Below, piece by piece: positions 1,518 to 12,697 of a stretch of DNA of 12,951 bases. Each line of letters opens with the position of its first letter. Positions within the stretch are counted from its first letter, which is position 1. This DNA is from an uncultured Lachnospiraceae bacterium. GTDB lineage: Bacteria > Bacillota > Clostridia > Lachnospirales > Lachnospiraceae. Made by a program: the position numbers and the translations under genes. The stretch is from NCBI GenBank assembly GCA_947178115.1, contig CAMWXF010000018.1, forward strand, positions 1 through 12,951, written 5' to 3'. Under the pieces are notes generated by a model. The model saw nothing but the letters and a program-made list of their open reading frames with translations, searched no databases and was not told the origin of the DNA.

Positions 1518-1937
1518 TTACTTCGATGCTTTCGGTCTCTTAGCGCCGTACTTAGAACGAGCCTGCTTTCTGTTAGCGACTCCCGCGGTATCCAGCGTAC
1601 CTCTGATGATATGGTATCTTGTACCGGGTAAGTCCTTTACTCTTCCGCCACGGATCAGGACAACACTATGCTCCTGTAAGTTGTGACCTTCGCCCGGAAT
1701 GTAGCTTGTTACTTCAATTCCGTTGGAAAGACGTACTCTGGCGATCTTTCTGAGTGCGGAGTTAGGCTTCTTAGGAGTTGCTGTCTTAACAGCTGTGCAG
1801 ACACCTCTCTTCTGCGGTGAAGCCGTATCGATCGCTGTCTTGTGAAGGGAGTTGTAACCTTTCAACAATGCAGGTGCGGTTGACTTCTTTACAGATGTCT
1901 GACGTCCTTTTCTGACTAACTGGTTAAATGTTGGCAT
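1518..1937 (-). CDS. rpsL: 30S ribosomal protein S12
   Basis: S12 lies at the decoding centre of the 30S subunit and controls accuracy of tRNA selection. The product is 139 residues, longer than the 124 of E. coli because of an internal insertion (about residues 18-40) typical of Firmicutes S12. Conserved blocks: [12 protein letters not shown] at the start, [20 protein letters not shown] at 41-60, and [20 protein letters not shown] at 85-104. Lys56 and Lys101, the positions where streptomycin-resistance changes usually arise, are both wild type. The start is ATG at 1937: an upstream in-frame GTG at 1946 lies within the Shine-Dalgarno sequence itself and is rejected. It is the first gene of the str operon, with its own promoter at 2024-2052 and a 5' leader of about 80 bases. 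Confidence 0.98.
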
Positions 1938-1951: not shown

Positions 1952-1993
1952 ACTTATTATTAGTACATGCCTTTATGACATTCTGTGCAACGC

Positions 1994-2045
1994 AAAAAAA
2001 TGCATTCACGTGCACACTAAAATAGTATACTTGCACGCGAATGCA
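1994..2045 (-). terminator. Rho-independent terminator of the rpoBC transcript
   Basis: In the transcribed (minus) direction the arms are TGCATTCGCGTGCA (2045-2032) and TGCACGTGAATGCA (2014-2001), giving 14 pairs with one G-U. The 17-base loop (2031-2015) contains a small ACTA/TAGT inner stem. The distal arm runs directly into seven T (2000-1994). It lies 53 bases past the rpoC stop codon. The hairpin has no immediate T-run in the plus direction, so it points at transcripts coming from rpoC. The promoter for rpsL overlaps it. Confidence 0.8.
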
Positions 2046-2052
2046 TTGTCAA
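2024..2052 (-). promoter_or_regulatory. Sigma-A-type promoter of the str operon (rpsL)
   Basis: The minus strand reads TTGACA (2052-2047), a 17-base spacer (2046-2030), then TATACT (2029-2024). The -35 is a perfect consensus, the -10 differs from TATAAT at one base, and the spacer is optimal. The expected start of transcription is near 2018-2017, about 80 bases before the rpsL ATG and inside the loop of the rpoC terminator hairpin. Confidence 0.88.
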
Positions 2053-2097
2053 CACATTTTTTTGCTTTATAAAGCGGTTTTAAACGGCTGCATTTTC

Positions 2098-5853
<3,756 letters not shown>

Positions 5854-11368: not shown

Positions 11369-12688
11369 CTACGGAGCCACGCTTGAGATATTGTCCCTGT
11401 CAATACTATGCCCCACATCTATCATCAGCCCGAACTTCTGTGCCTGCGTGACTTCCAGCTCCATCACGCCATAGGCCGTCTTGATCTGCAGCACTGTGGA
11501 GCCGTCCGGTTTCGTTATAAGCTTCGTTTCGATCTCATCCTCTTCTTCCGAATCTTTATCCGCTCCGACTCCTGCAGGGATCGTCATCTTGCCGTCATAA
11601 TATGAGAGTCGTGTCATATTTTTTCTGTTTTCATGCACTATGCCTCGCAGAATCAGCTCCATCTCTTCTCTGGTATAGAAACGCACACCGAAGTCATTCA
11701 TATATTTTGCATACTTGATCTTCTCCCGATCTATGTAAGTGGAGCCGTCCTTCTCATAGGTATAATCCGGCACTCCGTCCTTTGTTGTCTCGAAAAAAGA
11801 AACGAACTCATCCTCGTCGATCTCGCCCGCAAGGAAATCCTTCCAAAAATTCTCGTGGGCGGCAAACCGCAGGTTGGCATCCTGAGGAAACCGTTCCAAA
11901 AATGCCATGACCTTCTCATATTGCCCTTTTTCCGTATACGAAAAGCTCCACAGATCCTTGTTGACCCATCTCGTGCCGTCAAAATATGCTTCCTTACAGG
12001 AGATACCGTCCTGCCCGTAACAGGTAATATACCAGTGCTTCTGCTCCGGATTATCGGTGGGGTAACTGCATTTCGTGATTTCATCAGTAAGAAGCGCCGC
12101 TGCCTCCTCCGTTCCGATCTCCTCCGTCTTTATCGTGTCTGTTCCTGTCACTCCCGCTGCCGGCTGCTGCGGCACTCCTGTCACTTCAGTCACAGTCTGT
12201 GTCTCCGTTGTTTCTGACACATATGTCATTTCTTTCGGATCATGCATGCCGCTTTCGGCTTCCCGCCGTAACGCTTCCGCTTCCGCCTGCTTCTTGATCT
12301 CCTCGATCATCGCTTCCACTTCCTCGCGAAGCGCCTCCTCGGCAGCATCGAATTTCTCCAGAAGCTTTTCCCACTCTTTGATGGTATACTCCTGCGCACC
12401 GATCTTAAATTTCGGCTGGATCGTACCTTTTTTGATATTCTGCGCCATCTCCTCCATCTTCTCTAAAATCTGTTCTCTGTAAGACTTTGACTCAGTGGCG
12501 TCATCCTGCTTCTTATCCTTCGCATCCTCCCCGGCCTTTGCACTCTCATCTACTGTCTTCTGACCTTCTCCGAGACGATCCGCAAAGCTCATCGCTTCCT
12601 CATTTTCCGCATGATTTTTGCCATAGCTTCTGCCATATTCCGGATAATATCCCACTCTTGGGCTGTATTGATTCTGATTAATATTCAT
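11369..12688 (-). CDS. Uncharacterised 439-residue acidic, coiled-coil-containing protein
   Basis: I do not recognise a named family with confidence. The product is 439 residues, with no signal peptide and no membrane segment, so it is probably cytoplasmic unless exported by a leaderless route. In order: a polar Asn/Tyr-rich start (1-25), a short SFADRL motif (34-39), a charged low-complexity stretch (45-70), a Lys/Glu-rich helical and likely coiled-coil region (70-147), a Thr/Ser/Val-rich linker (155-195), a compact region with aromatics and Cys207, Cys223 and Cys231 (KHWYITCYGQDGISCKEA, 217-234), a helical block (252-300), and a C-terminal region with an acidic run at 379-386. The start is ATG 12688, because GGAGG (12698-12702) is 9 bases upstream; ATG 12697 abuts that site. 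It lies in the same direction as rplJ but has no clear functional link to it. Similar proteins seem to occur in Lachnospiraceae, from memory only. Confidence 0.88.
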   Translation of the reverse strand: MNINQNQYSPRVGYYPEYGRSYGKNHAENEEAMSFADRLGEGQKTVDESAKAGEDAKDKKQDDATESKSYREQILEKMEEMAQNIKKGTIQPKFKIGAQEYTIKEWEKLLEKFDAAEEALREEVEAMIEEIKKQAEAEALRREAESGMHDPKEMTYVSETTETQTVTEVTGVPQQPAAGVTGTDTIKTEEIGTEEAAALLTDEITKCSYPTDNPEQKHWYITCYGQDGISCKEAYFDGTRWVNKDLWSFSYTEKGQYEKVMAFLERFPQDANLRFAAHENFWKDFLAGEIDEDEFVSFFETTKDGVPDYTYEKDGSTYIDREKIKYAKYMNDFGVRFYTREEMELILRGIVHENRKNMTRLSYYDGKMTIPAGVGADKDSEEEDEIETKLITKPDGSTVLQIKTAYGVMELEVTQAQKFGLMIDVGHSIDRDNISSVAP

Positions 12689-12697
12689 ACAATCCAT

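Follow-up and report, generated by a model that had tools for sequence, protein, structure and literature searches.

The original study of terminator-promoter overlaps in Salmonella is reportedly that of Brandis et al. In the available text of PMC7055797, such overlaps between operons are described for Salmonella, the tufB-secE junction being the one tested and others of the same ancient operon cluster being named; the evolution of this cluster is the subject of PMC8046335, as far as the available part of that source goes. The junction analyzed here belongs to the same cluster, and it shares with the Salmonella cases the overlap of one operon's terminator with the promoter of the next. However, it lies between rpoC and rpsL in different bacteria, a group of the gut, and here a single hairpin encloses the core of the promoter, with the spacer making up one arm of the stem and the second arm being able to form a leader hairpin as well, the comparison being with the Salmonella overlaps as described in that text. 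Overlap at junctions of this kind is already published for Salmonella in that source, and what appears to be new is the nested form with a hairpin that shares a third arm.

Other known systems resemble parts of this arrangement. The rpsL-leader attenuators presented in the accessible portion of PMC2965389 also have a terminator upstream of rpsL, with alternative hairpins proposed; in contrast, the 5' arm of the terminator precedes the inferred start in our case, and RNA from the promoter itself could not form the terminator. A structured, conserved mRNA 5' end is a feature shared with ribosomal protein leaders (Rfam; PMC7247131), whereas our element has no Rfam match at the gathering score; Table 1 of PMC7247131, in the form seen, contains no S7 or S12 leader, and the control of the str operon by S7 in Escherichia coli is reviewed in PMC10931766, a source available in part. 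Recycling of polymerase after termination, as presented in the available parts of PMC6978380 and PMC11347151, also involves a terminator close to a promoter, although the promoter of those constructs is a separate unit, unlike the nested one here. Among the titles and abstracts listed by our literature searches, none describes such a nested element in Lachnospiraceae. In a microbiome-derived Lachnospiraceae bacterium, 894 high-confidence transcription starts have been mapped, according to the available part of PMC4782308.

We consider it very probable, from the sequence analysis presented below, that a stretch of 50 bases at the rpoBC-str junction is a nested terminator-promoter in which pairing of arms A and B would stop the rpoC RNA and pairing of arms B and C would head the rpsL RNA, the likely use being to insulate the two operons.

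Predicted promoter and terminator at the rpoC-rpsL junction

The window, that is, the whole stretch of 12,951 nucleotides that was analyzed, makes up one of the 371 contigs of a 2.13-Mb assembly. The gene order on its minus strand is rplJ-rplL-rpoB-rpoC and then rpsL-rpsG-fusA, where the rpoB label comes from an earlier reader's description and the gene order. The upstream operon ends with rpoC (open reading frame 2098..5853, minus strand, stop codon 2100-2098), whose C-terminal part was matched in congeners by tblastn; rpsL, encoding ribosomal protein S12, occupies 1518..1937 of the same strand, with its ATG at 1937-1935, AGGAGG just upstream, and rpsG and fusA downstream.

In the gap between both genes, a TTGACA-17-TATACT promoter (2052-2024, minus strand) overlaps a stem of 15 pairs and a run of seven T (2046-1994), all of them on the minus strand. 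The -35 box TTGACA is at 2047..2052, the 17-nt spacer at 2046-2030, and the -10 box TATACT, inside the hairpin, at 2024..2029. Transcription would start at A2018 or G2017 (2017..2018), judging from the distance to the -10 box and from a conserved start sequence, AGTGTG and AGCGTG being common at the same offset. Arm A of the stem (2032..2046) is the promoter spacer and pairs with arm B (2000..2014), 2046-2032 against 2014-2000, through 15 pairs including one G.U, and the T run follows at 1994..2000. Between the arms, an apical stem of five pairs (2027-2023 with 2019-2015) contains the last four bases of the -10 box. Thus, the original prediction of a promoter nested in a terminator hairpin at this junction is confirmed at the level of boxes, stem, and T run. 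The 14-bp stem it had proposed is corrected to 15 pairs, one of them G.U; likewise, the spacer does form the upstream arm and the -10 box does lie between the arms, but what had been taken for a plain loop would fold into the apical stem.

The promoter matches the consensus at 11 of 12 bases, as does just one other of the 32 promoter-like sites of a window scan, and its conserved -35 and -10 boxes and 16-18 spacing are those of a sigma-70/A promoter. Exact TTGACA-17-TATAMT sites number only 12 in the 2.13-Mb assembly, with one in a backwards control, and among these 12 the pairing between spacer and own start region reaches -25.0 kcal/mol at rpsL, the next best being -8.6. The idea that the nested architecture is common in the genome was rejected, as only the rpsL site among 134 promoter-like sites in 400 kb of the congener G041 combines a pairing energy of -14 kcal/mol or lower with six or more T in eight. 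In the same congener, another TTGACA-17-TATACT promoter (locus L208, near 16.7 kb, minus strand) has GAACATTTGTTC-like repeats in the spacer and after the start, which we take to be LexA-box-like.

The stem and T run fold with -24.9 kcal/mol (z -6.25; none of 200 shuffles as good), and the stable stem directly before a T run on the transcribed strand, the sequence signature of an intrinsic terminator, is present in 55/55 congener loci as well. This terminator is absent from the list of the automated window scan, which allowed loops of at most 8 and would have passed over it. Folding is likewise predicted for the plus strand (-24.8 kcal/mol), but its main stem is 11 bases away from a T run; a bidirectional terminator was rejected given this gap and a G.U bias that favors the minus strand. 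A mini hairpin within arm B, considered as a cause of early termination in RNA started at the promoter, has only -3.7 kcal/mol and a z of 0.16, and this idea was rejected too.

Conservation in the genus and beyond

A profile search for S12 gave a match in 56 of the 77 genomes of the genus, including the window's own, at 57 places. The nested element is upstream of rpsL in 56/57 of these loci, one per genome, and is present in 56/56 genomes with an rpsL match; the absence of both stem and promoter in close relatives, looked for as evidence against the original prediction, was not observed. The exception is a second rpsL copy with 91% identity in genome G061 (L053), which lacks the element and could be either a true second copy or contamination. 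TTGACA and TATACT are each found in 55/55 congener loci, and so is a T-rich stretch (at least five in eight). In family loci with no nested stem, on the other hand, the -10 box is TATAAT in 54/87 and TATACT in 11/87, and pairing of the -10 box in the apical stem may be the reason for the invariant TATACT of the congeners. A stretch containing CTGGCTGAACTG is common to five loci of the collection (L006, L011, L025, L036, and L056) before the promoter and looks, by eye, like a dispersed intergenic repeat.

A covariance model (R1) built from 38 distinct rows detected the element in 61 of the 77 genus genomes, at one place each, eight extra rows being the same place on the opposite strand. Three congener assemblies with no rpsL match hold the element (G026:C126, G027:C174, and G029:C154), 95-190 bases from a contig start. 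In the family, 13 of 299 genomes were matched by the model; 11 of the 13 belong to other genera, and nine of these 11 matches precede rpsL. The other two (L068 and L069, at about 1500-1600) have no rpsL match nearby and show promoter boxes inside an inverted repeat before another reading frame; these could be nested terminators or operators. Moreover, 47 public records hold the element by pattern, 38 of them titled Lachnospiraceae bacterium and nine otherwise.

In a family sample of 90 loci (L071-L160) from which five model-positive genera were left out, three look nested. This count does not exceed chance at a cut-off of -10 kcal/mol (null mean 0.88, maximum 4) and exceeds it somewhat at -12 kcal/mol (null mean 0.30, maximum 2), and repeated independent origin across the family was found unconvincing. 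None of 29 class loci (L240-L268, of 57 genomes with a match) was flagged as nested, many of them having no promoter by the criterion used; 28 are from outside the family and one (L260) is from the same family.

Covariation and strand bias of the stem

Across the 38 distinct rows, 95.0% of the cells are paired, against 90.4 in shuffles and at most 53.3 in slid controls. The expectation of compensatory stem changes together with conserved boxes in relatives is borne out, since both sides have changed in 7 of the 20 stem pairs, giving 46 such cells vs 12.6 in shuffles; kinship inflates these counts, whereas the slid controls keep kinship. The pairs covary although arm A is also the promoter spacer, and in some relatives (e.g., L064 and L070) the stem is largely rewritten with its pairing retained. 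Counter to this evidence, one stem pair is unformed in 24/38 rows (G.A in most of them), and 4/38 rows have A.C at the outermost position.

These data bear on a different explanation, in which the inverted repeat would be a DNA operator for a dimeric repressor bound at the spacer and just past the start, with the T run incidental. Such a placement is usual for operators, and the congener promoter with GAACATTTGTTC repeats, presumably LexA-box-like, has this layout and no T run after it. However, G.U and A.C would be tolerated equally between the strands of a palindromic operator, whereas among 37 distinct stems, end pairs excluded, G.U is found in 21 sequence contexts and A.C in 3 (p 0.0003), contexts that are partly dependent on one another. 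The excess of G.U over A.C suggests that the stem is probably maintained as RNA of the rpoC-to-rpsL strand. The T-rich stretch of all congener loci also points to RNA of one strand, and the extensive rewriting of the arms in relatives and the scarcity of other terminators where the element is present further argue against an operator, which we regard as highly improbable.

Separate terminators upstream of the promoter

A separate terminator was sought in the 160 bases before the -35 box. It was found in 1/67 nested loci vs 21/86 non-nested loci, with shuffled rates of 0.006 and 0.009, respectively. When only loci with rpoC found upstream are considered, the figures are 1/52 nested vs 10/20 non-nested (Fisher p 3e-6), and in genera other than that of the window they are 0/12 vs 21/86 (p 0.064), the 12 nested loci including three weak cases (L088, L112, and L121). 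L005, the only nested locus where a second terminator was detected, is also the one whose nested stem is the weakest among the 56 (-15.9). A non-nested row placed in the nested branch of the tree described below (L090) was counted as having a separate terminator, which by eye may be in coding sequence. Judged by sequence and covariation only, the stop of one operon overlaps the promoter of the next at this junction.

No rpoC match was present in the fetched flank at five congener loci (L015, L016, L038, L045, and L050), and the element is kept in 5/5. Upstream frames, read by eye in four of these loci, are alike in L015, L038, and L050 and different in L045. The element as predicted is not tied to rpoC in particular.

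A probable leader hairpin that shares the terminator arm

Beyond the original prediction, arm B also appears to be part of a start-site hairpin conserved in the family. In the window, bases 2016-2005, which overlap arm B, would pair with arm C (1984..1996, minus strand), the fold of B:C having -12.5 kcal/mol (z -1.93) compared with -24.9 for A:B. Therefore, one arm would probably take part in two exclusive hairpins, the terminator in incoming RNA and a 5' leader hairpin in rpsL RNA.

Evidence for this hairpin comes from the 87/90 family loci without a nested stem, which have a -35 box TTGACA in 74/87, a 17-nt spacer in 77/87, and a -10 box TATAAT in the 54/87 given above. Their RNA often begins, at the inferred start, with (A/G)GCGUG, AGUGUG, or GGCAUG, and this sequence pairs with a downstream arm such as GUGCGC, e.g., GCGUGC..GUGCGC. 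A strict criterion for a hairpin beginning at the start was passed by 64/90 family loci, 56 of them better than -8 kcal/mol, and 26 failed; the 38 clean family hairpins show many pair changes on both sides. In the 87 non-nested loci, the own B:C pairing has a mean of -10.89 kcal/mol vs -8.64 when partners are swapped (z -11.1, 0/5000), while the same swap gives z 0.5 for a control region (33 loci long enough) and z -0.3 for spacer vs RNA start. In several family loci, a GCAACC motif is seen by eye downstream of the leader hairpin.

Within the genus, 51/56 loci show pairing above 0.5 between bases of the start site and sequence beyond the T run, and 5/56 do not reach this value. Folds of the started RNA are slightly better than shuffled ones (mean z -1.3, 24/56 below -1.64), and the genus B:C swap test is weak (z about -2.6) because the arm varies little. 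The 3' side of the leader hairpin aligned poorly. In Rfam, no match at the gathering score was obtained at the element or in 20 family loci, a permissive search returned nine weak sub-threshold matches with E of 2 or more, and over the whole window only the L10 leader was found, as a positive control. The fold and pairing data indicate that much of the family, including loci with no nested element, has a hairpin at the 5' end of the str mRNA. This would give the str mRNA across Lachnospiraceae a 5'-end structure for which no Rfam family matched in the loci searched.

Proposed mechanism and its alternatives

Polymerase arriving from rpoC would copy arms A and B; their strong hairpin, placed immediately ahead of the U run, would end the rpoC transcript near 1994-1998. 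In this incoming RNA, A:B (-24.9) should outcompete B:C (-12.5), and arm C, being made after the T run, could not rescue the transcript. On the other hand, rpsL RNA would start at about 2018, inside the hairpin, and never contain arm A, so that arm B would be free to pair with arm C in a hairpin at the mRNA 5' end. The absence of the upstream arm from RNA started here had been anticipated and holds, but arm B would not be spare in that RNA, given its possible pairing with arm C. The core idea, that the full stem exists only in incoming RNA, is supported by covariation, the G.U bias, conservation in the genus, and the scarcity of other terminators. The likely use would be to keep rpoBC transcripts out of the str operon without an extra terminator, with a strong promoter setting the output of str.

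If the terminator were instead an rpsL-leader attenuator, it would be switched to control rpsL in RNA coming from a promoter further upstream or from rpoC read-through. For several groups of bacteria, the available text of PMC2965389 predicts attenuators of multiform shape before rpsL. Nevertheless, an attenuator has its terminator wholly in the gene's own leader RNA, and here arm A is upstream of the inferred start, so RNA from the near-consensus promoter would not form it; arm C would be made too late to act as an antiterminator in read-through RNA, and in the interval from the stop codon of rpoC to rpsL the window scan listed no further promoter-like site on the minus strand. We give this explanation very little credence.

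Another explanation keeps the same anatomy as the insulating junction and differs in its use, which would be coupling: polymerase would restart at the str promoter after releasing the rpoC RNA, or paused polymerase would occlude the promoter. According to the available parts of PMC6978380 and PMC11347151, polymerase can be recycled in vitro once intrinsic termination has occurred and can reinitiate at promoters close by, and effects of the Salmonella overlap on expression and fitness are stated in the available text of PMC7055797. However, the element is kept at the five congener loci with no rpoC found upstream, which argues that rpoC in particular is unneeded, and both recycling papers, in the parts available, state that recycling in vivo was not shown. 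Coupling in place of insulation seems to us rather unlikely.

At a similarly tentative level, one RNA arm shared by two operons might serve as a hand-over device, a leader hairpin having been made into a terminator by placing its complement in the spacer of its own promoter, and released polymerase restarting on the str promoter would then tie ribosomal protein output to that of RNA polymerase. If this were true, changes confined to the spacer could be enough to add a terminator to a promoter that has a leader hairpin. The junction would be a natural case, backed by covariation, of a promoter spacer, usually treated as filler, that carries RNA information for the upstream operon, and it would offer a natural template for asking whether a terminator-promoter overlap insulates, occludes, or recycles polymerase.

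History of the element

A tree of 49 loci, drawn open, was made from rpsL, rpsG, and part of fusA. The nested rows, which are relatives and not independent, are mostly on one branch: all except L088 are on a branch of 20 with a weak support of 81, together with one non-nested row (L090). The trait nested/non-nested needs three changes on this tree, and a single origin with one loss is plausible. Since the hairpin occurs in much of the family, arm A probably came later; the B:C leader hairpin would probably be older, and the lineage of the window's genus would have acquired arm A, and with it the terminator.

Elsewhere in the window, a 442-aa open frame with no Pfam match at 0.001 lies upstream of rplJ (11369-12697, minus strand). 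The gap between rplL and the next gene (9970-9871) has a terminator-like site at 9970-9954 and then a promoter-like site at 9899-9871, both side by side and un-nested. Finally, a near-consensus promoter, TTGACA-18-TATAGT, is found just before the L10 leader (RF00557, 11289-11157) in the segment 11323-11157.
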